The notes under the pieces: model-generated
Databases searched by the model: none
Seen by the model: the letters and a program-made list of their open reading frames with translations, nothing else
Told to the model about the DNA's origin: nothing
Assembly (NCBI GenBank): GCA_000442125.1
Contig: KE546984.1
Coordinates: 62,001-126,000 of the forward strand
Direction of reading: 5' to 3'
Source of the DNA: Opeltia flavorubescens
Taxonomy: Eukaryota; Ascomycota; Lecanoromycetes; Teloschistales; Teloschistaceae
DNA length: 64,000 bases
In this document: one piece after another, positions 14,134 through 35,235 of the stretch
How the letters are laid out: each line of letters starts with the position of its first letter
Position numbering within the stretch: position 1 is the first letter of the stretch
Made by a program: the position numbers and the translations under genes

Positions 14134-15926
14134 TGACAGTAAGAAATGCGTTGGTAGTACCACTGATTATAACAACCATTTGGTCTTGATCTTGAGTATC
14201 CCAAATCGATGTATCGAATGACTTGTGTTTCGTTAACGATGCCATCGAATTGTGATACATTGCAGTGCCCTCAGCCAAGCTGAGAAACAAGTAATGTCTA
14301 CAAATCTTACCAATGTAACGAGACCCAGAAATCCATGTCAGAGCCCTCCGTAGCTTGCTTGAGAAAACTGTGTTCTTTCAGCAGTATCGTACAGTAGGCA
14401 TTCGTCAGCCTGCACAATATGTTCGGATTTGATATAATTATCTCAATACCATAATTTCAAGCCGCGTATATTGTGACAAGATGGCCATAACCCTACTTCA
14501 AACCCTGGAAGAAAGCTTGGTAAGCGTTAATACCATGAGATGGGACGTAGCATCCTTGAAACTTATATTTTAAGGAAGTGGAAACACATCCCCCATCTAT
14601 CCCATGCTCAAACCCCTTCATAGACATCAACCCAACCCAAACACGCTCCCCAATCTTCGTAGGATCTTCATCTCAATATTCCCATCAACCGCGGGAGTAT
14701 CCCATCCCGAGCTACACACAGCATACAACTGCCTAGCACAATCAAGTCTTGCCGAGGCTAATCCCTGATTTGAGCACCACAGCCAGGGATGAGAGACGTG
14801 GTTCAGCTCTTTAATCTATATATTGGCTTGGTATCTTACGCTTTGCTCATGGCGATAATGTCGCAAGCTCTGGAATCGCCCCTATACGTATATCATATTG
14901 AGTTGGTATCATTGGCTCACAAATTCCATTGTCCAATGACGTCATTCCATGCCCATTGAATATATCAGCTATACATGTATCAAGCCACGCTCCACTTCGT
15001 CCATACATACACTTCCTAGCGGAATACTCGCCGCAACTTACCCGTACCAATCCCTGCGGCTCCATCGGTACATCCGTTCACATTCTTAGCTATCTCGAAA
15101 CAGGCCCTCACTCATCAACATGAACAGACATCTTCACGCCCTTCTAATCCCCAATGGTTTGTGTCAAGATATCAGCTTTGTCTAGCTATCCAACGATTAC
15201 TTATCAATAAATTGCCCGAAGGTTCTACCATCGAGAGACAATGCTACCGATGATTCTCGGTCCCTTTCTTGAATGAATGCCAAAGCGATGAGTAAGGAAA
15301 AAACAGGGATGTTTCTCACTTGATTAAAGCGAATCGCCTAGAGTAGAAATTCTGGTTGTAAGAGAATAATCTTCGCTGCGAGCATAATATTGTTCCTTGC
15401 ATTGCACTCTGAAGCCGAAGAAAGTCCGAAACGCTAAACGCATTATGGATTTTCTTCTCTTCAAAGTTCTTGCAGTTTTTGTTCAATGTAACGGGGTTTT
15501 GGTTGGTGAAAATTTTCCAGAGTTTGCTTGAAATCCTGCAACAATCATGTGTGGTCAACTTCGTAATGTCAGTAACCTTGATTGGTGAACACTGAAGTTT
15601 TAGATAGACAGAGTTCTTGGGAGATTGGGCTGTGCTACTGACAAACGCATACTGTTCAATACCAATGGTGACTTTGAATGAAATCTCTATGGTAGATGTT
15701 CGGAGTCATTCGCCCTCCATCAACGTCGTCCTTGTGTTTGACTGTTGATTCTTAGTTAGCACCCTCGACAGCATGACCACGAAACATTGTGAAACCTTCT
15801 TGACGTGGAGCATGTATCATATCTCTTTACTCACATTGAGTGAAGCCAACACCCAGACTCTTCTGGAACGGATGGGATGACGGTATCAAGATCGCAAATG
15901 TCTCATCGACATGCCTTCACCATGTG
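14134..15926. other. Intergenic stretch; 3'-flank relic of the tandem array at its right end
   Basis: No gene seen. A 10-base palindrome ATGACGTCAT (full CRE) sits at 14936-14945. At about 15880-15926 the sequence GATCGCAAATGTCTCATC...CCTTCACC matches the 3' flank that follows the first and second charged-protein genes. This suggests that one more unit of the tandem array once lay just to the left. Confidence 0.45.
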
Positions 15927-16044
15927 TACGATCAGTCACGAAAGCCCCATCATAATGACTCCCTCGTGTATGAAATACCATGAATCCAGCGATGAGGAGT
16001 CATACCATATGATTGCGTCACCGAAGGAAAATCGGGTATAAAAG
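15927..16044 (+). promoter_or_regulatory. Shared promoter, copy 1
   Basis: Blocks conserved with two other copies, in order: CGATCAGTCACGAA, ATGACTCCCT (15955-15964), GGAGTCAT (15996-16003, the inverse of ATGACTCC), ATGATTGCGTCACC (16009-16022) and TATAAAAG (16037-16044). TGACTC is the core of the Gcn4/CpcA-type bZIP site, and TTGCGTCA resembles a CRE/C-EBP half-site. Binding is inferred. Confidence 0.65.
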
Positions 16045-16203
16045 TTATGATCTTTCTCTTGAGATTCTTCTTCCTCTTCCACACACATCTCCGAAGTCTT
16101 CAATACTCCACACCTTTCCAAATCCTGCATTTTGTCAAAGCCATCCCACTCACGCACATCATCTACCACTCAGCCCATAGAACAATACAACAAAGCCAAA
16201 GAC

Positions 16204-17049
16204 ATGTCTTCCATCGACATAATTTCAAAATTGAAGGAATCAACGCCGGTCAAAGGACGCATCTGGATCGACAATCGAATCAAACAAGACCGCAACGAAT
16301 TCTATGAGTCCCTGAGACCATTGGCCACAATGGTAGAGATCCGCGAAGAAATGTGGCGCCTCTTCCTCGAGAAGCAAAATAAAGAAAAATCTATCACGAC
16401 CAAGGAACTCGAACAGGAGGAAAAAAAGGCGTCAGAGGGAAATTCCGAAAAACCCAAAGAATTCCATGGGGTAAAGATGAGTATGATCAAGGCAAAACTC
16501 GATTACATTGACAAATCCATGAGCGACAAAGCCCGTAAGAAATTTTTCAAGGAGATGGATGCCAGAAGCGATGAATGGAGCGGGTTGAAGAAGAAGAAGA
16601 AGAGCAGCGATGACGATGACGAGCCCAAGAAAGACCCTGAAGAGATCCGTGAGGAAACGTGGAAGCGTTATCACGCCCATCGGACGGGCAAGACGAGGGA
16701 GATACGAGAATTATGTGCATTAATCCAAAGTGAGGAACTCAAAACGGTGGACGAGGAATACACCTGCAGCAAAGAGGACCAAGAACAGGGCATCAAAAAG
16801 CTGAAGGGCTTCCTCGATGAGCTAATAAAGGAACGCGAATCTATAAAAGAAGAGGATGCCGAAGAGGTGGCGAAGGCTCGTGCGATATTCTTCCAAAGGT
16901 TCGAGGCGGCGGCGAAGCCCTGGGCTGAGGAGACAACACCAGAGCAAAAATGGCAGCGAAATCAAGAGAGGAGGAGGCAGGATGATGTAAGAGGGGATGA
17001 ATCATATTTCAGGACCTTGGCGCAGGAGCTGGGGAGGAATAGCTGGTAG
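16204..17049 (+). CDS. Highly charged coiled-coil protein, tandem array member 1
   Basis: A frame of 281 residues from ATG 16204, about 167 bases after the TATA box. It is very rich in Lys, Glu and Asp and almost wholly helical in appearance. It has two parts. The N-terminal part (residues about 25-125; FYESLRPLATMVEIREEMW ... DKSMSDKARKKFF) matches array member 2. The C-terminal part (about 150-270; IREETWKRYHAHRTG ... YTCSKEDQEQGI ... TPEQKWQRNQERRR) matches array member 3. The REE(M/T)W motif appears in both halves, which suggests an internal duplication. No catalytic motif, signal peptide or membrane span is seen. Function unknown; cytosolic or nuclear by default. Confidence 0.7.
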   Translation: MSSIDIISKLKESTPVKGRIWIDNRIKQDRNEFYESLRPLATMVEIREEMWRLFLEKQNKEKSITTKELEQEEKKASEGNSEKPKEFHGVKMSMIKAKLDYIDKSMSDKARKKFFKEMDARSDEWSGLKKKKKSSDDDDEPKKDPEEIREETWKRYHAHRTGKTREIRELCALIQSEELKTVDEEYTCSKEDQEQGIKKLKGFLDELIKERESIKEEDAEEVAKARAIFFQRFEAAAKPWAEETTPEQKWQRNQERRRQDDVRGDESYFRTLAQELGRNSW

Positions 17050-17270
17050 GCGCGGAAGATTGAGAATAGGTGGAACGGAAGGGGGCGGTCATTGAATTGT
17101 AGGAGTACTTGCTTGCCTTGGATATTTGCGTGCGATCTTGTAATCATACATAGCTTATTGCATGCTCTTTGAAAAAATCCAATCATGTCCAACGCAAATT
17201 CGATGACAATATGAAGATCGCAAATGTCTTATCACGAAGCCCTCACCATCGGACTGGGTTGATTGTGTTC
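17050..17270 (+). repeat. Conserved 3' flank of array unit, copy 1
   Basis: Directly after the stop codon the sequence is shared with the flank of member 2: GGTGGAACGGAAGGGGGC, then GATATTTGCGTGCGATCTTG, CATAGCTTATTGCATGCTCT and, further on, GAAGATCGCAAATGTCTTAT. It probably carries the 3' UTR and polyadenylation region and marks the unit of duplication. Confidence 0.7.
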
Positions 17271-17329
17271 CACCTTCATGGTATGACATATTGGGTTTAT
17301 CCTACTTAAAAATAGTGTGGTGCTCTTTT

Positions 17330-17600
17330 GTGTTATCGAGGGTATCTGAGCTCGTGTATAATCCAACCTAGCCGCTTAACATGCCGTTCGCTTTCGAACC
17401 GCTATTATAAAGTAATTTACCGTTACACATCGTCGCTAGTAATAACCGGTGTCCCTCGGTTAGATAAAACCCTCTAATATCCTCCTCCATCTGTTATGCC
17501 GAACTGCCGTATCATTTGAACTCTTACTATCAAGTATTTAGTTTAGTACGTCTACGAATACGTCTAAATACATCTCTACGAACTTCCGCCTCAGTCTAGC
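17330..17600. other. TA-rich, RIP-like tract between array units
   Basis: Composition changes sharply, with many TA steps and repeated TACGTCTA/TACGAATACG words and no open frame. It interrupts the otherwise repeated spacer between members 1 and 2. It could be a decayed insertion hit by repeat-induced point mutation, but no ends or coding remains are visible. Confidence 0.3.
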
Positions 17601-17775
17601 CCCATTCTATTCTTCTCAATATCCGACGTGCCAGATTCAAGCATCGTATCACGAACCTTCCCCAGCATGCTCATTATAAACATAAAGGCAGTACCATGCG
17701 CCGGACTCTCCATCATAATGTTCAGGATCTCAAATTCCATGTCTTCTGCTAACAAGCTCCGTTTCACCCTCTTAT

Positions 17776-17900
17776 CCATACGATTAGTCACGAAGGCCCT
17801 ATTATGACTCCCTACCTCTTGGAAACAGAAACAACATGATTTTCCAGCCAAGGGGAGTCATAGCTACATGATTGCGTCACCTAGGGAAAGGGTATAAAAG
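17776..17900 (+). promoter_or_regulatory. Shared promoter, copy 2
   Basis: Same block order as copy 1: CGATTAGTCACGAAGGCCCT, ATGACTCCCT with TGACTC at 17805-17810, GGAGTCAT (17854-17861), ATGATTGCGTCACC (17868-17881) and TATAAAAG (17893-17900). The first ATG of the gene lies about 200 bases downstream. Confidence 0.65.
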
Positions 17901-18096
17901 CGCCAATCTTCCTCTTCAGTTTTTTTTGTCTTTTTCTTCTCTACAGAACACCCCATATTCTGTAACCTTTCCAAATCCTGCACCTCATTCCACTCACGGA
18001 CATCATCTTTCGACCATCCCACGATTATTATCCACCAATATCGCTCTCCGAGACAACGTTGAAGTCCGCAAAAACAAGTAATAAAACTAAAAAAAT

Positions 18097-18471
18097 ATGT
18101 CTTCCAGCAGCGGAATTCCAGAAGTTGATGTGCCTAAGCCGGCAGGGGGACGACGTAAACATACACCAGAGGAAGATCACGACTTCTACGAATCTCTCAA
18201 ACCATTGAACGATCTTGTCAAGATCCGTGAAGCGATATGGAAGCGCTTCCTCGAGGACCGAAAGGAAGAGAGATCTGACCAGGCTAAGCTGCTTGAGGAG
18301 GAGGAAAAGTTGAGCGGTTGTAAGGATGACCAGGAGTATCAGATTCAAAGCCTGAAGGACAAGCTTTGCGAAATTGATCGGTCCATGAGCGATGAAGCCC
18401 GCGAGAAATATTTTCTTTACCTTGATGAGAGGAGCAAGCATTGGCCCTGGTTTACACAAGCTCGGGATTAA
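18097..18471 (+). CDS. Highly charged coiled-coil protein, tandem array member 2 (short)
   Basis: A frame of 124 residues that aligns with the N-terminal half of member 1: FYESLKPLNDLVKIREAIW matches FYESLRPLATMVEIREEMW, and DRSMSDEAREKYFLYLDERS matches the DKSMSDKARKKFF block. The C-terminal half found in members 1 and 3 is absent: the frame closes with a short WPWFTQARD tail and the conserved 3' flank follows soon after. It is rich in Lys and Glu, with no signal peptide or membrane span. The conserved promoter and 3' flank argue that it is expressed rather than a relic. Function unknown. Confidence 0.65.
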   Translation: MSSSSGIPEVDVPKPAGGRRKHTPEEDHDFYESLKPLNDLVKIREAIWKRFLEDRKEERSDQAKLLEEEEKLSGCKDDQEYQIQSLKDKLCEIDRSMSDEAREKYFLYLDERSKHWPWFTQARD

Positions 18472-18539
18472 CAGGTCCCGGGAGCGCTTGAGTGGTGACA
18501 ACTGAAGAGGGGTGGTAGGCGAGTGGGGGAGATAGGGAT

Positions 18540-18860
18540 TTGGTGGAATGGAAGGGGGCTGTCACTGGTTTGAAAGAGTGTTTGCTTGTTTCTGATATTT
18601 GCTTGCGATCTTGTAGTCATACAACAGTACATAGCTTATTGCATGCTCTTTAAGTACTTCCAGTCATTTCAGATCCAAATTCGATGACGATATGAAGATC
18701 GTAAATACCTTATCACGAAGCCTTCACCATCCATGCGATCAGTCACGAAATCCCTATCATTATTCCCCCTTCTTTGAAACATCACGAATCCCGCGAATGC
18801 TCATTACGAAGCCTTCACCATCCATACGATCAGTCACGAAGGCCCTATAATGACTCCCTC
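18540..18860 (+). repeat. Conserved 3' flank, copy 2, with a duplicated promoter-distal block
   Basis: The flank repeats GGAAGGGGGC, GCTTGCGATCTTGTAGTCAT, CATAGCTTATTGCATGCTCT and GAAGATCGTAAATACCTTAT. It then holds two copies of a block beginning GAAGCCTTCACCATCCAT and CGATCAGTCACGAA (about 18715-18760 and 18806-18854). The second copy runs into promoter copy 3. Confidence 0.65.
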
Positions 18861-18936
18861 CTCTCTGAAACAGCGTGATACCAGTCAATACGAGTCATAC
18901 CGTATGATTGCGTCACCGAGGGAAAGGGTATAAAAG
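18826..18936 (+). promoter_or_regulatory. Shared promoter, copy 3
   Basis: CGATCAGTCACGAAGGCCCT, then TGACTC (18851-18856), an inverted GAGTCAT (18892-18898), ATGATTGCGTCACC (18904-18917) and TATAAAAG (18929-18936), about 136 bases before the ATG. Order and spacing match copies 1 and 2. Confidence 0.65.
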
Positions 18937-19064
18937 TCCTCAATATTTCCTCTTCAGCTCTCTCCTCTCCATCTTCTCTATCTTCTCCATCCCCCACAAT
19001 ATACAGAAAACAGTCCTTCAACCAAACCCTTCCAAGCATCATCCACTACAACCGCTTAACAAAA

Positions 19065-19763
19065 ATGTCTAACCCTACCGAAGGTACGTTGATGCAGAAG
19101 GCCCGAAGAAACCAGGCCGCTCATCGTCTATCAGAGCTGCGGAAGAAGCAGCACGAAAAAGGTCTCCGCGAAGAAGACTACACAGACGAAGCCAGTATAA
19201 GCTTCCTCAAAATGGTCAGGGAGGACAAGCTGGCGCGAGGAGATTTCATCGAGGATCCTGCCTGGACCGAGGAAGAGAAGGAAAAAGCCCACGAGAAATG
19301 GCACGAGGAATACAAGGCCAAGAAAAATCCACGAAATTTCCGCGAGGAGATGTGGCAGGAATTCAAAACACGCCAAGGGCATGCGAGGGAGGAGCAGATC
19401 ATAGCTCTAGACCATTTAATCTGGAAGGAGAAAGGCAAACTTTCATCTAAGAAGTATCTCTGCAGCAAGGAGGAGCAGGAGAAAGGCCTGGAAAACCTAA
19501 AAAGTCTCTCGGAGGAATTGAAAGTTCAACTTCGCAGATGGAGGGAGGAGGGCTCGGAGAAAGATCGTGAGGTGTTCGATCGGTTGTTTGAGAGCAAGGT
19601 CAAAGCCCCGAAAGTCAAGACTCCGGAGCAGAAATGGCAAAGCTTGGAGCGGCGACGAGAGAAGATGCATTTGAAAGAGGAAGAGGGTTTCTTGGAAGAT
19701 TTTGAGAGTTATAGAAACCCGTACGCTAGTCATGATAGTGATGACAGTGATGATGAGGATTGA
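19065..19763 (+). CDS. Highly charged coiled-coil protein, tandem array member 3
   Basis: A frame of 232 residues. From about residue 85 it aligns with the C-terminal half of member 1: FREEMWQEFKTRQGHARE, then YLCSKEEQEKGLENLK, then TPEQKWQSLERRREK. Its first 80 residues are charged and different from the N-terminal module of members 1 and 2. It ends in an acidic Asp/Ser tail (DSDDSDDED). No membrane span, signal peptide or enzyme motif is seen. Together with members 1 and 2 it shows that the family is built from two modules that occur joined or alone. Function unknown. Confidence 0.7.
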   Translation: MSNPTEGTLMQKARRNQAAHRLSELRKKQHEKGLREEDYTDEASISFLKMVREDKLARGDFIEDPAWTEEEKEKAHEKWHEEYKAKKNPRNFREEMWQEFKTRQGHAREEQIIALDHLIWKEKGKLSSKKYLCSKEEQEKGLENLKSLSEELKVQLRRWREEGSEKDREVFDRLFESKVKAPKVKTPEQKWQSLERRREKMHLKEEEGFLEDFESYRNPYASHDSDDSDDED

Positions 19764-19960
19764 AGGGAGGGGATGGAGGGAGATGGCAGAGTTCAGAATG
19801 AGGTGGGAGTGGGGAGGCGATTACTGGATTGAGATGATGTCTGCTTGTTTCTGATGTTTGCGTGCGATCTTGTAGTCATACATAGCTTGCCTTGTGCTCC
19901 TTGAATAAATCCAGTCATTTCCGATTCATATTCCATGACGATACCGTGAAATTGCAAAGT
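19764..19960 (+). repeat. Conserved 3' flank, copy 3
   Basis: GTTTGCGTGCGATCTTGTAG, CATACATAGCTT and ATCCAGTCATTTC repeat the flanks of members 1 and 2, with more drift than between those two. The match fades by about 19950. Confidence 0.6.
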
Positions 19961-20961: not shown

Positions 20962-21415
20962 GGAGTACTGGATGTTGCGAGATGCTTTCATGAACAGCTT
21001 GTCGTTCGATGCCTGCGATAGCGGTCGACAGTCCATATTTTGATGATTACAAGCAGCTAACATGCGTGGAGGATGCCCTCTTCTCCGAAGGTTACTCTCC
21101 CTTCTTGAACGACAGCACATCCTAATTTCTATCACTTAAAATACTGTTCCTCAAATATCTTCCAAAGTCTCTGCCATCGACCTTCTATTCGTTGATTATT
21201 GCGTTCGTTCTGTGCAAGCGAGCCCCGCCTTGCTAGAGTGCTGGTCATCGTATATCTTTTATATCTTAATAGAGTATCGATACTCTTGCGTTCAAGAGCG
21301 TGAAGCACGGATGGCCATTTCGGAAGGGACATGGAGCGATTGATGGAGGAACTTTGCCAAAGACTTCGGGTGAATCGGATAATTCGGGGGACCGAAGTGC
21401 CGAGCCGGGAAAAAG
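20962..21415. other. Intergenic stretch
   Basis: No convincing gene. Several short frames on the minus strand continue into the hairpin repeat cluster and look like translations of repeat sequence. Confidence 0.4.
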
Positions 21416-21419
21416 CCGA

Positions 21420-22010
21420 GACGCGTTTCTTTTAGCGCGCCGGCTTGGCACGCACATAACAAGGTGATCTTCACGTTGCAAGTCTTCTTTTCTTTCCTCG
21501 CCTTCCTCGGAAGTGCCGACTTGTCTTCGGATAAGTTGCGCCGTGCTGCCTTAGGGCTCATGGTTTTATTTCCAATTTGCAAAGATACTGTACCTCTTAA
21601 TGGGTGAAAATCCATTGCGAGTGCTTTATCTTCGCTCGCATTTCTTTTCTGTGTGGGTGAAAATCCATACTGAATGCTTAAATTTTTTACCTGCATTTCT
21701 TTACGGGTGCAGTATTCTTTCGGGAGTGCTGTATCCTCTAGATTGCCACGTCCTGGCGCTGAAATGGCCTGGGATTCAGATCCAATCAAACATTTTTCTT
21801 TTCCGCATTTCCTTTGGAAGTGCCGTCTCTTGTAGCCAGAGGCTCAAGAAGTGAAATTTTATCATATCCTCCGATGGTTACCACAATCGCTTCGGTGATT
21901 TATGAACATGGATACTCGAATATGACTCTATGCTCGCGTAATCCTCGCATCCGCAAGTGGTAAGGAAGTTACCATGTCCTGGTGCCGCCAAAGCCCAGGA
22001 CCCAAACTCA
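21420..22010 (+). repeat. Hairpin repeat cluster A
   Basis: Degenerate units, each combining a short capped hairpin and a longer bulged hairpin. Short hairpins: 21502-21513 (CTTC/GAAG), 21519-21536 (ACTTGTC/GATAAGT around TTCG), 21711-21730 (AGTATTC/GAGTGCT) and 21805-21823 (GCATTTC/GAAGTGC). Long hairpins: 21541-21563, 21750-21775, 21829-21848 (CTTG T AGCC / GGCT CAAG) and 21976-22001 (GTCCTGG/CCAGGAC). GGGATTCAGATCC follows the second long hairpin. TGGGTGAAAATCCA occurs twice (21601 and 21654). A leader with AGCGCGC, ATCTTCAC and TCTTCTTTTCT at 21420-21495 also precedes cluster B. Confidence 0.6.
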
Positions 22011-22360
22011 ATTATTTTACTTTATTTACTTTACTTTATCTACTTTCTTCTTCTTTTTTTCCATGCCGAAGCACGGTAGTCTTGAGTAGTGGCAAGAGCC
22101 TCGGAGCTGTGAGGTCTCGAGGAACGTGAGCCCATTGAGGATGCGAGGTCAACGAAGACCAAGACCGCACACGACGTGAGGGCAGGGAGGACGTGACGCC
22201 GTAGAGGACGTGTGGCCGCAGCGAATGTGAAGGCTTGGAAAGCGAAAGCGAAACCGAAAACTTTTTTGAAAGCACCTCGATATGCTAACGCAGAGCCCAG
22301 AAGTCACGATCCACCGTGCCGTTCAAGACAGGCAGACTCGTTAGCCAGTCGACGCCAGTC

Positions 22361-24232: not shown

Positions 24233-25927
24233 CTACCAATTTTCTTCTGCCCTACGCGAATTTCCCTCCAAAGAGCCCTCCTCCCTGGCCGCCACTCCAC
24301 GAGGAGGTGTCACTCCCGAATGCCCTGGAGTATTTGTTAGCCCGTGGTCATCGTGCTCGTCATCCTTCTCCAGCTCTGCCCCGTGAACGTACCTTTCTGG
24401 TTCCTTGCCGCCTTTCCCATTGCCTTCACCTTTGTCTTCACCACTGGAATCTCCTTTGCCACCATCCTTGTTGGCTTGAGAACCCGACGTTGTAGAAGGT
24501 ACCTCCGGTTCTGCTTGAGCAAAGATCGATCGTCTTGGGACAGCAGGTTTTTGTGGCCGTGCTTGAGCGAATATCGATGATTTCGCCTGTTGCTCGCCTG
24601 GTGCATGACTCACTGCTGCTGGCGGTGATGCACCGAATCGGCTGGGTCTCACGATCGGTCCTAAAGAAGGAAGTACTGATTTTCCGACAGCGAAAGGGCT
24701 ATTTGAGAACGACGTGTCGACGGCAGGTTCTGCGTCTCTCTTCGTTTGAACGATTTCTGTATTGGCGAAAGGCGCTGGTCCGACGGTAACGTTTTGCAGT
24801 TTTCCATATTTGCCACCTCCCGGATTGAATAGACCACTTGTAAGTTTCAAGAATGCTCGACCATTGTTACCAGAGCCGGGCTCCCCTTCTTGACTTCCCT
24901 CCGCTGTTCGATCATCGGGACTGGCAGTTGTACGGTTCTGTACGCCCTGCTGACCGGGTACCTTGGCCTTTACTGGTTGAGCTTGTGCAGATCCTCGTTC
25001 AGTTGCAGCCGACGAGGGCGCCTTTTGTGTGATCAAGGGGGCTCCAAATCGTCCAGATCCAGACGTAGCTGGTGATTGCTTGGCTTTGGCGATTTCCATG
25101 TCTCTTGCACTGAGCGGAGGTGGGTTTGCCTTCCGTAGAAAGGCCAGAACCATCGGATCATCATCCGCGATTGGCCCCTCATCTTCTTCCCTTTCCTCTT
25201 CGTCTCCGTGGTGTACTGAGTCTACGATTCTCCATGTAGCCTTCGGAGACGTCGGACGATTCGCTGGCAACAAGGTTGTTGATCCCAGCCCACGCTCAGG
25301 TGGATCCTTCGGAGACGTTTCACTCCCCTGGCTTCTGCCAACTCCAGTACTCTGGTACGGATTCCACACTCTTAGCGGTGATCGCGGGGGCTCTTGTTTC
25401 ACAGGAGGTGAACTCAACCGAGGACGCTTTGGAGCCGGCTGACCCAATGCTTCCGAATCAGGTCGTCGTGAGGGCACATGCTGCTGCGATGTGCTAGCCG
25501 CTTGAGGTCCGTCAAGGAATCCACCAGCAATAGCAATCTCCTTGATCATGTCGAGCTGTTCAATTTGGCCCTTGTGAACCTCAAAGAAGTCGTTAAAGCT
25601 CTGGCTGAATTCGAATCGGGTATGCAACTTCTCCGCATTAAGTCTCCGGATTTCTGCTCGAGCAGCTGCGAGTTCATCAACGAGTCTTTCGTAATTTGTA
25701 TCATCGCTTCCAGGGAACTGCGCTGTCGGAGTAGATATAGACTGAGCTTGAAGCACCGCATTTTCATCCTCGAGGCTATCGATCCGTTTCATAAGATCTT
25801 CGTTTCTGAAGCGAAGTTGATCCCGTTCTTCCCTGTCGCGCTCCGATGCCTTCCTCAGCAGTCGAACCTCTTTCCTCAACTCCTCATTACTTAGATCATG
25901 AGACCTGGAGTCTCCAATTGAAGACAT
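24233..25927 (-). CDS. Coiled-coil / disordered protein, paralogue A
   Basis: An intronless frame of 564 residues. Residues about 10-130 form a coiled coil (LRKEVRLLRKASERDREERD, LEDENAVLQAQ, LAAARAEIRRLNAEKL), ending at GGFLDGP. The rest is Pro/Ser/Gly-rich and probably disordered. It holds the block GPAPFANTEIVQTKRD, two SIFAQA phrases and a charged Gly/Lys/Glu tail. It is clearly paralogous to the gene at 29478-31289: both start MSS-x-GD, both have EEEN or EDEN before a leucine pair, FSQ(S/A), GFLD(G/R)PQ and the FAN(T/P)E(I/V)V block. No catalytic motif is seen. Possible roles are scaffolding or nuclear, but this is a guess. Confidence 0.7.
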   Translation of the reverse strand: MSSIGDSRSHDLSNEELRKEVRLLRKASERDREERDQLRFRNEDLMKRIDSLEDENAVLQAQSISTPTAQFPGSDDTNYERLVDELAAARAEIRRLNAEKLHTRFEFSQSFNDFFEVHKGQIEQLDMIKEIAIAGGFLDGPQAASTSQQHVPSRRPDSEALGQPAPKRPRLSSPPVKQEPPRSPLRVWNPYQSTGVGRSQGSETSPKDPPERGLGSTTLLPANRPTSPKATWRIVDSVHHGDEEEREEDEGPIADDDPMVLAFLRKANPPPLSARDMEIAKAKQSPATSGSGRFGAPLITQKAPSSAATERGSAQAQPVKAKVPGQQGVQNRTTASPDDRTAEGSQEGEPGSGNNGRAFLKLTSGLFNPGGGKYGKLQNVTVGPAPFANTEIVQTKRDAEPAVDTSFSNSPFAVGKSVLPSLGPIVRPSRFGASPPAAVSHAPGEQQAKSSIFAQARPQKPAVPRRSIFAQAEPEVPSTTSGSQANKDGGKGDSSGEDKGEGNGKGGKEPERYVHGAELEKDDEHDDHGLTNTPGHSGVTPPRGVAAREEGSLEGNSRRAEENW

Positions 25928-26339
25928 AGTTTAATTCTGAAACCCGCGGCGTTCCACCAGCAGGTCGTGCTTTCCGAGGAAAGAGTATGCTAAAGCAAAT
26001 AAATGTAACCAGCCCACAAGGCGGTAAAACGTCAGATTGATAAGCAGAAATGCTTGTGGGGTGTACGTGGTCAAAATTTGGAGGCTCTGTTCTTGTGGAC
26101 GATGGTGGATGTTGATGAAAAACAAACTCAAGACAGCAAAAGATGTTGAGTGCGCTGTGAAGATTACCTAATCCTCTAATCAAGCGAGTGATATCGGTAA
26201 TAAATGATATGAAGCTAGCCCAGATCAATTTGATGGCTCCTTCATTGTCAAGTCATCACTATATCGACTAGGTGGTGCACATTGGCACAATATGCATTCT
26301 GTAGCATGGTCTTAGTAAACGTGAGATAGGTGCGATTCA
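25928..26339. other. Intergenic stretch
   Basis: About 400 bases upstream of the coiled-coil gene and downstream of the F-box gene; presumed promoter. No motif stands out. Confidence 0.4.
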
Positions 26340-26657
26340 TTATAATCTCGACCAGTCAACTTTCCAAACCAAATCAGTACGAATCACAATAATCTGGTCG
26401 TAATCGATGGCGTAAATCGACATACTTCTGTATTCATCAATTCCTGCCATCGTGCTTTCCTCACGCGGTGGATTTCCTTCAAAGATTGGTTCAAGGGCGA
26501 ATCTATGAATCCAGACATCATCATCAGATCCCGACAGAACCGATACTCCTACCAATGCGTAACGTGAGCCTAATCCAATTCTCCGCAAAAGGATTTCTAT
26601 CTCTCCAGCTTCCAATCGCTCCAAGTATGTATCAAAGCTAGGACCTCCCTTACCCGC
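26340..26657 (-). other. In-frame coding-like extension of the F-box gene
   Basis: The frame of the F-box gene stays open for 105 more codons beyond its TGA (26658-26660). It reads GPSFDTYLERLEAGEIEILL, then RRIGLGSRYALVGVSVL, then SGSDDDVWIHRFALEPIFEG and on to the stop at 26340. The texture is that of real protein. No GT...AG intron removes the TGA. It is either the lost C-terminus of the protein or, less likely, translated by read-through. Confidence 0.5.
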
Positions 26658-28082
26658 TCAACTATGGTGCACATTTTTGAATGGAAGATCTCGTAGAGGA
26701 CTATTACGTTGCCTCGTAACGTAGAGCTCAATCTGCTTGCACAGATCCTTGTGAACCACCTCTCCGAACTTCCGCTCATATTCACCTTTATTTCGACATA
26801 ATCCGAAGTTATCAAGATGCAAATTATCCCGTAAGCCATCAAGGAGCTCAACCCAACGACCCTTTTTTATGTAGATATCGTTTATGTAGAGCTTCTTCAA
26901 AACTCTATGCTTTTTCAGACAGTCGAGTAATTGTGTGGAAGAAAGTCTTAAGCCGGCTAGAGTAATACTTTCCAATCGTGGATAGGCTGATGATTCTGAA
27001 AGGGATTCCATCATAGCTGATGAGATATCTTCCCGGAAGACGACGTCCTCTTGCGTGTACCGCTTGCTTTTATTTGGCTGTGGAGCTTGAAAGCTGATAT
27101 CCAAGTTCTCTAGTGTTGGCACTCGGGGAATTAAAGTGCAAAAAGAATCTTTGTATTCTTCATCATAGACCTTGAGATAATCTTGAAACTCCAAACGAAG
27201 TGACGTGACAGATGGTGGAATCCACTCCAATGGAAGAGCAAAGAACGTGCAGTGAGGATAGACTTGACGAACCCGGTAGATTGGACGAGATGTGCCCAAG
27301 TCCAGGTGACGAATGGTGTGGTTTACCTTCGCAAGGCTATGAAAGAGTGGACGTAGCTCATTATCGACATGGCGTTTCTCCCATATCATGCGAGGTCGAA
27401 GCCACAGTGGATGCCACTGTCTGGCAAGCGGACCGTGGAAAAACATTCCACGAGACTGGGTTCCGTCCAAGGACTTCATCAGGTCGAAACCTTCGACTTT
27501 GTTCCAGTAGCCCTGAACAATTATGGTATTCAGACCAGAAAAGCTGATGAGCCCTTTTGTAAGTATATCTGAGAAGGTTTGATCGCGTCGAGATGTTTGC
27601 GCAATGATTTGATTTGCGCAGGCATCCATTCCTGTCGATTTTAAACCAGTGTTATCAGGAGGAGCTGGATGGAACCTATATCTGCACGATAGATATTCCC
27701 CAAACAACGAATTGCAGACAGTCTCGTTATCTGCAAAGCAGTGAATACTTGTTGGCTTAAGGTCCTGGTAGATTTGATTCTCCATGAAAGGTCGGTCGAA
27801 ATAATTCTCGTCGAAAACCTGCACATCGTACACTAGTGTTCTTACACACTTCGCGAGGTCCTGTCGCTCAGCAATTGCTTTAAAGACTTCAATGTCGATG
27901 CCGAAGCCAGAGATCACCACCGTTGTAAATAGAGATGATACTGCACAGTTTGCCAATCTCTTGCAGCTCTGGCGGATAGTCTTCAACTGGGGTTTCTCGA
28001 TATAGCTTAGGATACTGACGAGGACCTCATCTGGTAGGCTGAGAATTTTTAACATGGGAGGATGTCCTGTGGACGGTTTCAT
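26658..28082 (-). CDS. F-box protein, possibly truncated at the C-terminus
   Basis: From ATG 28082 the frame gives 474 residues. Residues about 10-50 (ILSLPDEVLVSILSYIEKPQ, LKTIRQSCKRLANCA) are an F-box, the Skp1-binding domain of SCF ubiquitin ligases. Downstream, spaced leucine-rich stretches (TLENLDISF, LESITLAGLRLSSTQLLDCL, LKKLYINDIYI) suggest a degenerate leucine-rich repeat surface for substrate binding. In-frame ATGs upstream (for example near 28178) would add residues, but the F-box starts best from 28082. The frame closes at TGA 26658-26660 although coding-like sequence continues in the same frame to 26340. The partner substrate cannot be told. Confidence 0.75.
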   Translation of the reverse strand: MKPSTGHPPMLKILSLPDEVLVSILSYIEKPQLKTIRQSCKRLANCAVSSLFTTVVISGFGIDIEVFKAIAERQDLAKCVRTLVYDVQVFDENYFDRPFMENQIYQDLKPTSIHCFADNETVCNSLFGEYLSCRYRFHPAPPDNTGLKSTGMDACANQIIAQTSRRDQTFSDILTKGLISFSGLNTIIVQGYWNKVEGFDLMKSLDGTQSRGMFFHGPLARQWHPLWLRPRMIWEKRHVDNELRPLFHSLAKVNHTIRHLDLGTSRPIYRVRQVYPHCTFFALPLEWIPPSVTSLRLEFQDYLKVYDEEYKDSFCTLIPRVPTLENLDISFQAPQPNKSKRYTQEDVVFREDISSAMMESLSESSAYPRLESITLAGLRLSSTQLLDCLKKHRVLKKLYINDIYIKKGRWVELLDGLRDNLHLDNFGLCRNKGEYERKFGEVVHKDLCKQIELYVTRQRNSPLRDLPFKNVHHS

Positions 28083-29477
28083 CTTGATGAATTGAATCAC
28101 GTGTGGCGCAAAGCTGACAGGTGGTGCCTCTCGATAGAAGAAAAAATATTCGATGGGCTGTAGCGGCAAAGGTAGCATACAACAGTAGGGAACAACAAAT
28201 TCGGGCAATCTAAGTCCTAGCGAGTCATACTAGAACACTCGGTATTGGAAGAATGGTTCAATGGTAGGATAGCGGATGCTAGATGCTGGATGCTGGACAG
28301 TTGACGTTCGACGCTGGACGCTCGACGCTGGGCAATGTTTGACGGTGGATGAAAGATTATGATGGTCGTGAGATGAAAAGAAGCCTTCGCTGGAAGCCCT
28401 GTGTTCTCGTTGCCGTTAAGGCGTGGGTGATGATATCGGGAGTAGGACTAAGTGTTCGAAGAATTTGGGAATGGAATTGTACTGCTGAAAATCCGAAATC
28501 GAGATAGCGAGACAAAAGCTATGCGTGGGAAACGGACGCTAGTTTAGAGTAGTAGTACGGAAAACGAGCATTTTTCCAGAAGTATAAGGGGATCTGTGCG
28601 TTGGAAGATCAATTATACCGAAGCTCTAGCGAGCTGGAAAAGTGACGACATATGAAGAAAGAGCGGCAGTCAGCCCAACTCATCATTTTTGACATGTTGA
28701 TCTGATGACATATTGGCTTAAACCGAGTCAGAAAATTACTTAAAAATAAAATTAGATTAGCACCATTTTCCACCTTCACAACTTAGTTCGAGGTTTTGTT
28801 ACTCATGATTGATCACGATGAATGAGGTCCCCTGAGTCGATGGCAAAGACGATTGGCTAATCAGGGAGATGAGTGCATGTCTAGCCTGGGACCTTTCACC
28901 GACTGACGGTGATGAAATGATGAAAGCTTACGCCGGGTGCGATAGAAATCATGTAGAGACTATGATAGGGTATTTCAACTACTGGTTCTTCTCCAAAACG
29001 CCACCGGAATGCTTCCATTCTACGAGAATAAATAGCTAGGACTGCGAGGAAGATTTTGGCAATTTCCATGAGGAGGAAGCTCTTCGACATACCGGAGGTC
29101 GAGAACCAAAATCTAAGACTGGTCGGATGAAGACATGAGAGCCGAGGAGCAACGCATGCAAGAGTGGCGATAGTCGAGAAGCTGGCGGAGTTCAGAGGCT
29201 TTGCCAATGAGGATCAGAAGATTGTGGGTGCGGAGTGATGACAAGGTGGGTGGTTATTTAGAAAACGTATAGGACCAGAACGACGTAAGTAGTAAGCGTC
29301 CTTTAAGAGAGCAGATTAGAATCATTGTTGAGGCAAGACGTTGAAGCCGTAAGCTCTGGATGAGGCTCTCATCATTTTCTAAGGATAAATGACCTTGTAA
29401 ATCAGTGTCAATAGATTAATGTGGTGCGATCTGAACTTGATCATCGGACGAGTATTGAGGTTCTAGGAAAATATGGA
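28083..29477. other. Intergenic stretch with a short degenerate repeat
   Basis: About 1.4 kb without a convincing gene. At 28272-28333 there is a degenerate array of 10-base words of the type GATGCTGGAT / GACGCTGGAC. A frame on the minus strand at 28896-29207 lacks an ATG and recognisable content. Confidence 0.4.
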
Positions 29478-31289
29478 CTACCATGAGCCCTTCCAAGTTG
29501 TCGTGGCCATATCTTCGACTTCCTGCCCGGAAGTTTTGAACCGCTTCGCAGATGGAGCACCCTGGTCCCGTCGTCCCTTGCGCCGTCTCTTGCCCGTTTC
29601 CCATACATGCTGATCCTGCTGACTTTCCTCCGATTCAAGCGTGGCTTCCTCTGAAGGCTTGGTAGTAGCGACCGGGCTGAAGGTGACATCCGAATTTTCT
29701 ATATGGCCATTAGTTCACCACTCGACTAATTATCATCTGTTGTATCTCACCGTTCGATGCCTGCTCCCAGACTTCTGCCACTCCACCTCTACCGCCACCT
29801 TTGCCCCGTTTTGATCCCTGTGTAAGAGGAGGTATCGCTTGTGCTACTTGAGCTGGTGTCGTCCACTCTGAAGTCGCGATTGCGGGTGGTCCTAAGGGAT
29901 TAGCCGGTCCTGCTTGAGTTGGTACCGTTCTTGTTTGAGCTGGCGCAGATGACTCTGATGGTGCCAGAGTTGATGGTGCTACCGGAGTCGGTGTTGCTGC
30001 TGGTCTAGGCGGCACTGTTGACAATGACACATCGAACTGACCAGGTCCTCCTAGTGGTCCTGCACAAGGAAGTTTTGATTTTCCGAACACAGCTGGATCG
30101 ACTGTCAGCGAGGCCGAAGCGGCACGCCGCTGCCCTTTCTTTCTTCGGACGACCTCCGGGTTTGCGAAATGCCTCGGTCCAGTCAGAAAGACTGACTTGT
30201 TCCCATTCAAGTCTAACCACTTAGGTAGATCATCATAAGTGGGTGGAGGCTCTGGACGAAGGAAGTTTTCAATGTCGATGATTCGTGGTGGGCGAAACGG
30301 TTTCCTCTCTTCTTGTACTACCGGAATCTCCATTTTCGATGAAACAATCGAAGAGATCGGGCATATCATTGGTGCAGAGCTCGGGTCGTCCGGACCACAA
30401 GGTAAGGGAGCTGCCGGATCTTCCTTCTTTGATAAGTGAGCAAGCTGTAACGAGCACGGATAATCTGGACAATATGCGAATGGACTTGTTGGAGCTGAGT
30501 TTCTTCCGAAGCAAATGACAAATGCTGACGCCTCATTTGTAGAGAGCGCAGACTTCCGAGAACACGCGTGGTTGAGCCGGCCGCATCTTCCGGTTTTGGT
30601 GACAAATTTGAAGATCCTGGATGATCAGCTCGTAGAGAGCTCGGCAATCCTGGACGTCGTGCAAGTGGATTCTCTGTGGCTATGTCTTCAGTCATAGGTT
30701 CGATGGCCATAGAGTCCTCGAACTTTTTCGACAGGGCTGACGGTGATCGCACAGATTCTCTCCCTTTTATGACTGATGGACTTGATCGATAGCTTGTGAA
30801 AAGGCGTGGCTGGAATGATTTTGATGCTGATGGTGCGCCAGATTGGCACAGGTGAGCTGACTGGGGCCGATCGAGGAAGCCATCGGAAACCGCGATACTT
30901 TGGAGTAAATTGAGCTTCTCGTTCTGGCTTCGATGAATTTTAATGGATTTATTGATGGCTTGGCTGAAATCGAGCCGTATCTGCAACCTTTGCTGGTTGA
31001 GTGTCTCGATTTCCCGTTGAGCATCAGAGAGCTGATCAATGAGGTTCTCATATTCCGAATGATCGACCCTAGGTTGCTGCGTTGTGTGAAGAGACTGTAG
31101 CTTACCTTGAAGCATTGCATTCTCCTCCTCGAGGGTGTCATTCCTAAGCAAAAGGCGCTCAAGTCTGGATTCAATATAAATCTGCTCTTCCTTCTCACGG
31201 TTCAATGCTCTCTGCAAGCGTCTTACCTCTGCCTTGAGCTGCTCTTCTTTACTGAGGCTGCTGGAGCTGAAGTCTCCACATGAAGACAT
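29478..31289 (-). CDS. Coiled-coil / disordered protein, paralogue B
   Basis: Three exons: 31289-30554, 30494-29751 and 29698-29478. The introns are 30495-30553 (GTCTGC...ACTCAG; donor GTGTTC at 30565 also keeps frame) and 29699-29750 (GTGAGA...TATAG). The product is about 566 residues, almost the length of paralogue A. The N-terminal coiled coil (LKAEVRRLQRALNREKEEQI, LEEENAMLQGKLQ) ends at GFLDRPQ. The middle has PKWLDLNGNKSVF and GPRHFANPEVVRRKK. A Pro/Ala/Thr-rich region follows, and the last exon is basic (VWETGKRRRKGRRDQG), looking like a nuclear localisation signal. No enzyme motif. Identity with A is partial and even along the length, so the duplication is old. Confidence 0.7.
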
Positions 31290-32203
31290 TATATGAAATT
31301 TAAAATTCAGTGACCTTGGCCAACTGAAACGCCTCCCGAAGAAGGTAATGAGACCTCAGCAATGACGTCAAGGGACAAAAGCCAGTCGTAAGGGCGGCAG
31401 TGCGTCGGTAAAACCAGAATCAAGATGAACGACGTGCGTGAATAGAGTTGAAAGATTGATGGTTGTCGTGGAAAGGTGGATATGTGGAGGGTAAGATTTA
31501 ATATAGTACAGGATACTTCTGTGCGCTACAAGATCACCAGCAAGTGGGGGGTATTGATTACCGACTTTTGGGAATGGATCGAGATTTTGATGTGATGAAA
31601 ATGCCATGTCCTTCACCGCTGCATACTATGATGATATCGCCAAGAGAAGTATTGTGAAGGATAAACCTTATATCACTACGTCATGCTCTACCAAAACCTC
31701 AAGTAATATAACTTTTTGAATGAGATTCGGCATCGAAATCAGTTCATTTACTTCTTCTCACCCTTCCAAGTGATTGACATAGAAACATTTACACTACCAG
31801 ATGAGAGGATCGTATTTGAATCGAGTCCCCACCGTTCCACAAAGTAGCATGACCTTGGTTGATTTACCTTTGTTCAAAATGAGAAGAATTACTCCTCCCA
31901 ATAGACTTGAGGACCTCTCTGTAAACGACAGATTCTTTCTTATGCATGATAACTGGAGGGATGGACCGACGGCGAGGGGATAAAGCTCAAAAACCTCATT
32001 CATAGAATGGGATGGAGACAGGACGGCATTATCGAGCATTCTGTGTGGAAGTCAAAGAAGGTATCATTGGCATAGTGAACAAGACTGGCAGGCTGCATTG
32101 TCAGAGGAGAAATGATAGGTGTAATCGAGCATACTGATACAGTGATGAATGAAAGAATCGGATACTCATAAACCTATCGGGAAGGACCTATCCGTTTTCA
32201 CAG
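31290..32203. other. Intergenic stretch
   Basis: About 0.9 kb. Only short frames without recognisable content; no gene or repeat seen. Confidence 0.45.
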
Positions 32204-34316
32204 TCACATCCGGACACACTTAGAGGAACCAATTGAGTTTGATGACGGTGCCGCTGTCCACTTCCAGTACTGAACTTCATTCGTGCCAGCCTGCCCGCGC
32301 TTGTCTAGTGGAAGGGGAAGAGGCTCCAATTTTCCGCCAGCCAGCTTCACACACACCCGACCACGTTCAGTGCAGTCCGAGCATGCTTCGTTGACATTGT
32401 CCAATACGCTCTTGGTATAGATAGCATGCCTTTCGGCGCACTTGGCCTTTCCTGCTCCTGCTCCTGCTCCGTTGAACCAATCTGCCCTCAAGCTGTCCCA
32501 TCTTGATACCTGCTGCTTGATAATCCGAACAATAGCCTGGGGTACAATCGCACATGTGAAGTTGTCGCGCTTGAGATCAGCTAGATCCCATTGCGGAACA
32601 TCACTCCTAGGCGGCTGCCCTGGTACTCTGATGATCGATCTAGTGAAAGACGAGGTGTCCGCGTTCCGATCTTTGGAATGATTGCCATAAGGAGTAAGAG
32701 GAGGGTTGCTAGACGCCGCTTCGCTGTTGAAGTCAGAAGGCGTAGCTGGCTCGTCCGGACTCTCTTCGTGAGAACGCTTTCTGCTGCTAGTAGCACCAGA
32801 TGACATGTCGTTCACAGATGTTGTGGTATTCCAGAAATGACCACGTAATTCCGGTGACTCCCTAACGCGGACCCTTCTATCGTCCGCATCGGCTTGCCTG
32901 TCCCACCTGCGTTTCAGCTCAGCACGCCCAGTCTCCAGGCCCTTGAGCATCTGCCAAAGCTCATCGCGTTGTCTAGTCGCGTTCTGGGCAGTAGCAACGA
33001 GGCGATCGATCCTGGGTTGGAACTTGGCTTGGGCATCGCTGGTCGCTGCAGCGCACTGGCGTTCAAGATCCCGAATCCGCTTGTGCGAGTATATCAACTC
33101 TGATGAAGGTGTGACTTCGTACATCCTCAGCTTACGTTCCACTGCAGCCAATCGACGTTCCAAACGTTGTATTTTTTCGGTTGTAGATACCTTCCCTTTG
33201 GCATATTGTTGCTGGACGGCTCGTATTGCACTTTCGACAGCATCATCAACCCTTGCCCGTGAAGTCTGTGATTCTCCATGGCCACGTAAAGAGTGAGACT
33301 GCGAAGATGCTACGTGAGCAACAGAAGACTCAACTTGAAACCCTTGTTGTGATACATCCAGGTCCGGCGTGCTAGGCGTGTTGGTTGAATCTCTGTGCTC
33401 GGTCCTTAGACGAGCCAGGTGCTCGGCTTCGAAATCACGAAATCTGTCTTGATATGCAAATTTTCCTGTCTTCATCTGATTGTGTTCAGCTTCCGAGGTG
33501 TTTGCATCACTGTCTTCTCGATTCCGGGGATTGAGACGCTGAGTCAATCGCGACACCTCGTTGCATTTTGCTTCCAATTCCTTCTCTTTGTGTCTGAGAT
33601 CTACCCGGAGCTGATTGACGGTCTCTGCCAAATCGTTCGCAATGTCGGAAAATCGCTGCTTGTCTTTCTCGACCTCCTGTAATCGTTTTCGGTATCTTCC
33701 TACATCTAGGTCTCTCGCTGAAAGCTGAGCTTCCAGCTCTGACCTCTGCTCCAATAGTCTCCCAAACTTTTTGTTTATTGCCTTGGCAATAACCACTGCG
33801 TCTATCTCAATCGACCTGTATGTCACTGGGAAATTCAAATTGTTAATGGTGGATTGCAGTGTAGTCATGGCGTCACTGAAAGCTGCGACCTGGTGGTCCT
33901 GTTCTTCTAGGCTGTGCTGGCTGACCTGTCCCTGCTCATGCACATTCGATGCTCGATCATTACGCTTGATGGGTTTCGCTGTAATGACGGGTCGTGTCCT
34001 TCTCATCGCGGGCTCTTGCTCTTTCAATTGCTGCAGAGCTGCGTCATATTGCGCTATGCGAGCCTCCAGTGTATTCCGGAAGATGCTCGCCTCTGTAAGC
34101 TTCTGCGTCAAGCTAGCATGTTGGGTTCCGACGCGCCGTCCTCATAGCTTCTAGAGATCGCGTCAGCTCAGCAATGATCTCATCGGACAGGCGTAATAAG
34201 GGACTGTCTAGATATTGATTCCTGTTCCCCACCGTAGCGACTAACTCCTCGGTACTCAACCCCCTGGTCTCAGCCACAGAGAGTGCGTTAGAGGCATCAC
34301 CTGATGTGTTTTGCAT
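32204..34316 (-). CDS. Long coiled-coil protein with Cys-rich C-terminal motif; one frame break
   Basis: About 700 residues if two frames are one gene. From ATG 34316 the frame reads to LSDEIIAELTRSLEAMRTA near 34137. The coiled coil then continues in the next frame (TQHASLTQKLTEASIFRN) to the stop at 32204. One extra base in ACGGCGCG would explain this; it may be a sequencing error or a true frameshift, since no good intron is present. Long heptad-rich regions follow (LEQRSELEAQLSARD, KIQRLERRLAAVERKL). The C-terminal part has a compact motif, CAERH...ACSDCTERGRVCV, that resembles half of a fungal Zn2Cys6 cluster or a zinc ribbon. It may be a nuclear scaffold or DNA-linked protein. The function is not known. 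Confidence 0.6.
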
Positions 34317-35235
34317 GTTCGTTCTGAATCACAAGTAATACAACCTATGACGTGCCCACCGAAATGGGATTTTGCTTCTTTCGAAGCGAGAGAAATCCTC
34401 TCCCGTGACAAAAGTCTCAAAACTTCAATGCCCAGTGCCGGGATATCCGGCGACTGTCTGTAAAGATAAGAAGAAGAGTGTGATATTATCGAAGAATAGG
34501 AGAAAGAGATATGGCTCGAGGCGTGGGTGTCGTGTGTGCAGATCGAGATGCAAAGAGAACGAGCTTAATATCGGAGTGGGTCACGTGATCGTCACTCAGA
34601 ACACTGACCTTGTGAAAAGGCTTAATCATTCACGATCTGGGATTCATATCGATCAAGATTTAATTGAGATTTCCCAATGACTACTACAGTGCCTCACGGC
34701 TATCGAGGAAATATACCTACAAATATGGGAAGTGAGGATGCAAAGGAGAACGAAGAATGGACTTAGGATCGGCGACCTCCTTCTCGACTACGACACTAAG
34801 GAACAGAATGTATCACAAGCTTAGGACGTAGAGCTGGCGTCCAGAGTAAAGGGCAAGCTCCCATACCAAATGTAGCTTGTAGGACGAGGGTTTGAAAAAC
34901 AATGATACAAACCCGATTCAAGTCTGTTTCCCTCCCTCTGTGCGTCCTGGTATCTTCCAAACAGAGTCCACTGCACAGACATAAAATCTCGCCTCAAAGA
35001 TTCGAAGTGTCGTCGAACCGCTCGTCTGATATTTCGGTCACGGCAGCGGACCAAATGTACCACTTTCTTACACCTTCGCTGTTCAGGAAGTCTAGGTATC
35101 CCATCTTCATGTTGCTACAAAGCTTTCTTGAATGCATGAGAGATACTTACCCTATACTCGGGTCAGTGAGACTTAAGATCGAATTGCCCAACAGCCAGAG
35201 TGATCCAAAACAATTTCTAAGAAAGTGACAAGAAT
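34317..35235. other. Intergenic stretch
   Basis: About 0.9 kb; no convincing gene on either strand. Confidence 0.4.

Follow-up and report, generated by a model that had tools for sequence, protein, structure and literature searches.

The window analysed here, a stretch of 64,000 nucleotides, has a G+C content of 44-53% in 2-kb steps and holds genes that Pfam recognises as coding for an Ofd1-type oxygenase, a TPR protein, an F-box protein and an amino-acid transporter, among others; as this gene content is nuclear-type, we take the window to be nuclear DNA of a fungus. Two arrays of small hairpins on the plus strand, cluster A and array B, flank a row of minus-strand genes at 24233-34316 (C, F-box, D and E), one on each side, and within this row the F-box gene is the only one with a passing Pfam family. 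Cluster A itself lies between a plus-strand open frame that ends at 20961 and a possible unrecognised coding region after 22360. The other three genes of the row are these:

24233-25927, minus strand: gene C, for a coiled-coil-like protein that starts MSSIGDSRS; no Pfam family above the cut-off
30366-31289, minus strand: first open frame of gene D, a paralogue of C with 42% identity over 139 amino acids of C
32204-34316, minus strand: gene E, for a coiled-coil-like protein; gene model uncertain, no Pfam family above the cut-off

The frame that opens at the ATG of gene E stops after 67 codons (34115-34316, minus strand) while the long frame runs in another phase, which may reflect an intron, a frameshift or decay. 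Between protein E and proteins C and D no similarity could be detected, the best comparison having an E of 0.18. Neither Pfam searches with a cut-off of E 1 nor, for C and E, sequence searches of PDB revealed an RNA-binding domain, and no relatives were confirmed for protein C in viral contigs or for protein E in bacterial and archaeal genomes.

Cluster A is a chain of plus-strand hairpins that runs from 21500 to 22001, preceded by promoter-like motifs and a leader:

21421-21440, plus strand: promoter-like motifs ACGCGT and TTTAGCGCGC, both of which also precede array B
21467-21499, plus strand: CT-rich leader, homologous to the leader of B
21500-21516, plus strand: short hairpin 1, from folding and alignment to the start of B
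21517-21538, plus strand: short hairpin 2 with a UUCG loop, on the same grounds
21540-21564, plus strand: long hairpin with a mismatch, on the same grounds
21598-21617 and 21651-21670, plus strand: two GAAA-capped hairpins with stem pairs exchanged, within 21598-21670
21705-21782, plus strand: unit A3, with a 14-bp UUCG hairpin (21705-21736), a long hairpin with a bulged C (21750-21775) and UUCAGAUC
21805-21849, plus strand: unit A4, with a short hairpin (21805-21823) and a long hairpin with a bulged T (21828-21849)
21885-21900, plus strand: A5, a lone UUCG hairpin
21957-22001, plus strand: unit A6, the last in the array, with a short hairpin (21957-21975) and a long hairpin with a bulged T (21976-22001)

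An earlier note on this DNA had described cluster A as a repeat family of paired hairpins and quoted five stem pairs from it, all of which we located in the sequence. The short stems GCATTTC/GAAGTGC, AGTATTC/GAGTGCT and ACTTGTC/GATAAGT lie at 21805-21823, inside the hairpin at 21705-21736 and inside 21517-21538, respectively, and the long stems CTTG-T-AGCC/GGCT-CAAG and GTCCTGG-T-GC/GC-CCAGGAC lie at 21828-21849 and 21976-22001. Over its whole length (21490-22005), the array folds far more stably in sense than expected, with a z of -5.6 and none of 200 dinucleotide shuffles as stable, and the antisense value is -2.6 (3 of 200 shuffles). The sense flanks stand at +2.6 (20965-21420) and +1.8 (22005-22360). 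A stability scan with 300-nt frames at steps of 100 nt (638 frames, minus those with N) places 21501-21800 as the most stable plus-strand frame for its G+C, with a z of -2.76 in sense and -0.3 in antisense.

Array B repeats this arrangement on the other side of the gene row, where it spans 35322-35572 on the plus strand and has the same promoter-like motifs and leader ahead of it:

35237-35267, plus strand: promoter-like motifs ACGCGT and TTTAGCGCGC
35289-35321, plus strand: leader, aligned to the leader of A
35322-35339, plus strand: B1, a short hairpin
within 35322-35392, plus strand: unit B2, with a short hairpin (35341-35356), a long hairpin (35360-35385) and GUCAGAUC
35421-35438, plus strand: B3, a weak, degenerate short hairpin read from the sequence
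35449-35500, plus strand: unit B4, with a short hairpin (35450-35463), a long hairpin (35468-35493) and UUCAGAUC
35521-35572, plus strand: unit B5, with a short hairpin (35521-35536), a long hairpin (35540-35565) and UUCAGAUU

Ahead of both arrays the order is ACGCGT, then TTTAGCGCGC, then the CT-rich leader (21421-21499 in A, 35237-35321 in B). ACGCGT occurs at 5 places in the window, two of these among the array promoter-like motifs, and its distance to TTTAGCGCGC is unequal, 10 in A and 21 in B, with TTTAGCGCGC out of register when A is aligned to B. TTTAGCGC occurs twice in the window on both strands together, once before A and once before B. The leaders themselves (21467-21517 in A, 35289-35340 in B) are 82.7% alike over 52 columns (E 1e-7), the match extends into short hairpin 1, and both arrays open with two short hairpins followed by one long hairpin. 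The three full units of B (B2, B4 and B5) align without gaps over 52 nt and differ by about 21%, B4 and B5 being 94% alike over 49 nt. Folding stability of B is only mild, with a z of -2.05 and 7 of 300 shuffles as stable.

The spacing between units of B is 108 and 72 nt, in each case divisible by three, and two of the three plus-strand frames through B are free of stops (0, 1 and 0 stop codons). A 138-codon open frame covers the array at 35279-35695 on the plus strand, with peptide repeats of the form SEVFILWPQG.GIQI. If these features meant that the units were repeats within a protein-coding gene, an open frame would be expected in both arrays; in cluster A, however, the three plus-strand frames are interrupted by 7, 5 and 4 stop codons, the changes among units follow pairing, and the frame over B matched no Pfam family. 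We regard a coding origin as scarcely credible, and the 138-codon frame probably follows from the spacing of the units, which comes in multiples of three. The stops in A also support the claim of the earlier note that selection here does not act on protein.

In each unit a short hairpin, of 5-9 bp except for 14 in A3, usually carries a UUCG, CUCG or UUUG loop; after a spacer that is mostly 0-4 nt long comes a long hairpin in which an outer stem of 5-7 bp and an inner stem of 2-4 bp are separated by a single unpaired 5'-side base, mostly U, and closed by a loop of 3-7 nt. The position of this bulge is shifted by one in A3 and A6. Single-stranded UUCAGA[A/U] often follows the unit and is absent after A4, A6 and the copy before gene D that is described below. 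The bare short-plus-long shape is not rare, and without loop type and bulge it stands barely above shuffled sequence. A first shape descriptor for the hairpin pair found 14 matches on the plus strand and 5 on the minus strand, within the range of 5-16 that 12 shuffles gave, and the densest stretch of 600 nt held 3 pairs, a density equalled in 1 of the 12; a tighter descriptor found 11 and 6, where shuffled strands averaged 6.0 and reached 14. When the tight shape was further required to have a bulged T and a loop whose last letters are TCG or TTG, a filter chosen after the units were known, 5 of the 17 real matches remained and none appeared in 40 shuffled strands. Those five are B2, B4, B5 and the leaders of genes C and D. 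No unit of cluster A strictly passes: the loop of A4 is called as 3 nt long and that of A6 is of another kind, A2 carries its mismatch and the spacer of A3 is long. A count of hairpins that have a TTCG or CTCG loop and 5 bp or more gives a similar distribution: 7 lie on the plus strand (3 in A, 3 in B) and 4 on the minus strand, where those ahead of genes C, D and E make up 3; a shuffled strand holds 2.1 on average and at most 6.

The gene-side copies were also found by a covariance model (R1) that was trained on the three gap-free B units alone and run over both strands of the 64 kb. It gave nine matches up to E 10, three of them its own training units. Its best match outside B is the leader of gene C (25984-25934, minus strand, 25.1 bits, E 8e-4), followed in cluster A by A3 (21713-21782, E 0.006) and A4 (16.3 bits, E 0.092); the leader of gene D (31346-31297, minus strand, 13.6 bits, E 0.39) ranks below these two, and A1 is recovered weakly at 21500 (11.9 bits, E 0.96). 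The ninth match, at 8423 on the minus strand (E 3.2), was left out, and A6 scores only 4.6 bits. A3 is further supported by its fold and by a sequence-only model match at 21749-21782 (18.1 bits), and A4 by its folds. That sequence-only model (R2), made from the same alignment, gave 6 matches up to E 10, which include A3 and A4 and are without C or D, so it is structure that carries the R1 match at these two leaders. The elements ahead of the genes read as follows:

25941-25983, minus strand: leader element of gene C, with CTTTC-CTCG-GAAAG (25983-25970), a long hairpin with a bulged T, and UUCAGAAU; ATG at 25927
31306-31345, minus strand: leader element of gene D, with CCTTC-TTCG-GGAGG (31345-31332) and a long hairpin with a bulged T; ATG at 31289
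34328-34368, minus strand: leader element of gene E, with CCCAT-TTCG-GTGGG (34368-34355), a 9-bp long hairpin without a bulge, and UUCAGAAC; ATG at 34316
34374-34387, minus strand: GAAA-capped hairpin in the E leader, directly upstream of the element

The same hairpin pair thus sits ahead of the start codons of two nearby genes, and probably of a third. From the long hairpin to the ATG there are 14 nt in C (13 counting an outermost G-U pair) and 16 nt in D, and from the element to the ATG in E there are 11 nt. Between the C and D elements, which were picked for this comparison with their hairpins already known, double changes affect 4 of 6 outer pairs without any loss of pairing. In the minimum-energy fold of D the long hairpin is kept and the arms of the short hairpin are paired otherwise, and the C and D elements taken alone show no exceptional stability (z -1.3 and -1.5). 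The E leader is a weaker member of the family, and D is likewise weak on its own (E 0.39). R1 gives E only 7.3 bits (E 4.4), and a model built from the enlarged alignment described below (R3) finds it at 34369-34321 on the minus strand with 16.8 bits (E 0.21). Together with the GAAA-capped hairpin, the E leader (34328-34392, 65 nt) has a z of -3.3 in sense (2 of 500 shuffles) and -2.0 in antisense (27 of 500). Upstream of the F-box gene, which lies between C and D with its ATG at 28082, a 9.6-bit match about 28 nt away was judged a non-member.

Paired changes were counted in a seven-member alignment that takes in the R1 matches up to E 0.5 and is fitted to R1, with three of its rows being the training units and with an A3 row whose 5' arm differs from that of the best fold, across a 33-nt insertion. 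Of its 105 cells, 98.1% pair, against a shuffled mean of 80.0, and double changes occur in 10 of 16 pairs, against 3.8; none of 500 shuffles reaches any of five measures, and sliding the partners by 1-3 columns (six controls) yields at most 4 doubly changed pairs. In B alone, over the gap-free alignment of three units, 97.9% of 48 cells pair and 3 double changes are found (13 of 500 shuffles), while the further pair types are not unusual (172 of 500). A separate test re-paired the arms of seven long hairpins, again picked with the hairpins already known (A2, A4, B2, B4, B5, C and D), and 2 of 5040 permutations reached the observed pairing; A3 and A6 were left out because their bulge is shifted. 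The table of these arms holds 28 G-U and no A-C, a contrast that is biased since it contains only pairs chosen beforehand as paired. MAFFT alignments misplaced the stems and were kept out of the pair counts. R3, built from the seven-member alignment without filtering, gave 18 matches, of which 7 are its training members and one is E; three more lie in A (at 21502 and 21520) and in B (at 35323), and 7 are elsewhere. The stretch at 21520-21571 in A is a weak one (15.1 bits, E 0.48), and the matches at 33776, 44495, 46838, 8401, 28383, 28111 and 34373 (8.7-15.1 bits) are taken as chance and enter no count.

The earlier note had read the paired changes as a mark of selection on RNA, or single-stranded DNA, structure. 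Double changes are more numerous than in any of the 500 shuffles or the six slid controls, which supports selection on structure, and strand comparison supports RNA: the sense fold is more stable than the antisense in 10 of 10 folded stretches, one of which contains another, with A6 ahead by only 0.1 kcal/mol. Loops of the UUCG and GNRA types stabilise RNA, and these loops together with the lower sense energies argue for RNA of the plus strand in the arrays. Single-stranded DNA is the less likely selected structure, because the loops are RNA-stabilising and because the copies beside genes follow gene sense. As the same element stands directly before start codons on the other strand, a point that the earlier note had missed, what was an orphan repeat becomes a leader element.

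We consider it about an even bet (probability near 0.5) that this is a structured RNA leader element acting on the translation of local genes, and that A and B are multi-copy arrays competing for a factor. The case is built on a model trained on B and tested elsewhere, on the position ahead of start codons, and on the paired changes. Read in sense, an element would present a short capped hairpin, a spacer, a bulged long hairpin and often UUCAGA[A/U], the last of which would remain unpaired as a reading motif. In the mRNAs it would abut the initiating small ribosomal subunit, at the place where the trailing edge of the subunit would be. A protein or other trans factor might read the hairpins and UUCAGA and thereby set start-codon use, with the bound factor, or the structure alone, slowing or helping it. 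A and B could have been derived from gene leaders by duplication and may be transcribed as multi-site RNAs able to compete for the same factor.

The arrays allow two readings, either as decoy RNAs or as leaders of lost or unrecognised genes, and the strong pairing in A favours function. If they were relics of the second kind, duplicated locally and without a function in trans, only the copies at C, D and E would work, in cis. The promoter-like motifs and leader common to A and B fit such an origin, as does ATCTTCAC, which the C leader carries too as one of 12 occurrences in the window. It is also consistent with relics that the open frames tried behind A and B have no Pfam match, and that the stretch after the last B unit resembles the one before the C start codon, yet has no ATG at the same spacing; the pattern has 3 matches in the window where 0.62 are expected (1 of 100 shuffles has as many). 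A dead leader, however, should lose its pairing, and pairing is kept both in A, where it is strong over 500 nt, and among B units about 21% apart, which counts against relics. We find a purely relic origin doubtful, with odds well short of even.

A further possibility is that A and B are independent structured noncoding RNAs or small-RNA precursors, and that the leaders match them by shared ancestry and have no regulatory role. The arrays have promoter-like motifs of their own, A is stable along its entire length and no open frame is kept in both arrays. Against this, the three top-scoring sites outside the arrays all lie within 16 nt of start codons (C and D being in the R3 training set), and stems of 5-9 bp are short for use by Dicer. 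Independent noncoding RNAs thus appear distinctly unlikely.

A leader element acting on translation, with arrays that compete for its factor, would be without a counterpart in Rfam. The earlier note could name no known fungal RNA family for it; Rfam 15 has no match at gathering score anywhere in the window, and the element looks like an RNA control element that has so far gone unrecorded. Below threshold, only low-scoring, unrelated families appear around A and B, such as PrrB_RsmZ near A (13.7 of 44 bits) and Xist_exon1 on the antisense strand of B (12.2 of 50 bits); mir-723 and sR52 near the C leader do not overlap the element, and 31280-34500 has no match up to E 1. Pattern scans of viral contigs found no match to the leader, to the long hairpin or to the junction of short and long hairpin, and a scan of bacterial and archaeal genome contigs for the long hairpin also gave 0; because the collections are bacterial, archaeal and viral, these zeros say little. 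H/ACA snoRNAs were set aside, as the stems are short and there is no such Rfam match, and so was a tRNA-like or SINE origin: GGGATTCAGATCC, which we take to resemble a B box, is missing from some units, and ARAGORN (bacterial code) found no tRNA. A literature search over open-access titles and abstract beginnings returned no report of the element among the matches listed.

Bacterial sponge RNAs such as CsrB and RsmZ carry many hairpin sites in one RNA, with single sites before start codons. A and B would act alike if they titrated a factor that also binds mRNA leaders, and at the level of sequence and predicted start codons the multi-copy site here is indeed also found singly before start codons. 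No sequence, host or factor in common with that system is shown, and the 13.7 bits of PrrB_RsmZ are no evidence. It is conceivable, although we rate it as unlikely, that A and B are fungal decoy RNAs titrating a putative translation factor from single leader sites of local, lineage-specific genes.

Among fungal RNAs, two genome-wide screens considered here describe 15 and 17 candidate structures, many of them at conserved genes such as ribosomal protein genes (PMC5640933, PMC8216456). The nearest printed candidate found is the SART-1 motif (PMC5640933; Li and Breaker 2017), which by its description is likewise a fungal candidate RNA in a 5' UTR position, with at least two possible hairpins and a UNCG-capped P1. 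According to that account, the motif is found with SART-1-like genes and is predicted to form on their antisense transcript, its strand having been judged by G-U versus A-C and by loop (PMC5640933). Compared by description, the element here differs in standing in gene sense, before the coiled-coil-like genes C, D and E, none of which has a Pfam family above the cut-off, and in occurring also in arrays. The RPL12 5' UTR structure and other ascomycete mRNA structures, as described in their report, resemble it as covarying short structures in fungal untranslated regions (PMC8216456). Those 17 are described there as predominantly single copy per genome and many as lying at conserved genes (PMC8216456), whereas here 64 kb hold several copies, at genes for which no Pfam family was recognised.

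The doubled hairpins also recall the double-hairpin elements of fungal mitochondria, which have two adjacent hairpins per repeated unit and which the reports characterise as mitochondrial, GC-rich and potentially mobile (PMC10085805, PMC4618339). Our units likewise have two adjacent hairpins, and local duplication in B (94% between B4 and B5) would suit a mobile or recombination-prone DNA hairpin of this type. The copies here, however, lie beside nuclear-type genes and are not GC-rich: over 35 nt, G+C peaks at 63% in A, 66% in B, 69% in C, 57% in D and 51% in E, below the search rule used for the mitochondrial elements, which asks for over 75% GC in 35 bp (PMC10085805). Those at C, D and E keep gene sense and a near-equal distance to the ATG, and copies vary in sequence and not in pairing. 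A DNA hairpin is accordingly a very improbable account of these units.

An RNA leader element that recurs in front of genes outside any known family, including two paralogues, and also in arrays with no recognised gene, would suggest that these sites share a factor which reads the RNA and that a lineage-specific set of genes is controlled at the RNA level. The element also gives a ready search model for related genomes.

Two smaller features lie on either side of cluster A. Right after the array, at 22061-22076, the minus strand carries a hairpin CCGTG-CTTCGG-CATGG with a UUCG loop, and no gene start is seen behind it. On the plus strand at 15850-19950, related open frames at 16063, 18091 and 18879 have repeated upstream blocks; one of these, GATTGCGTCACC..AAAGGGTATAAAAG, precedes two of the three and is a likely TATA promoter copied along with the genes.
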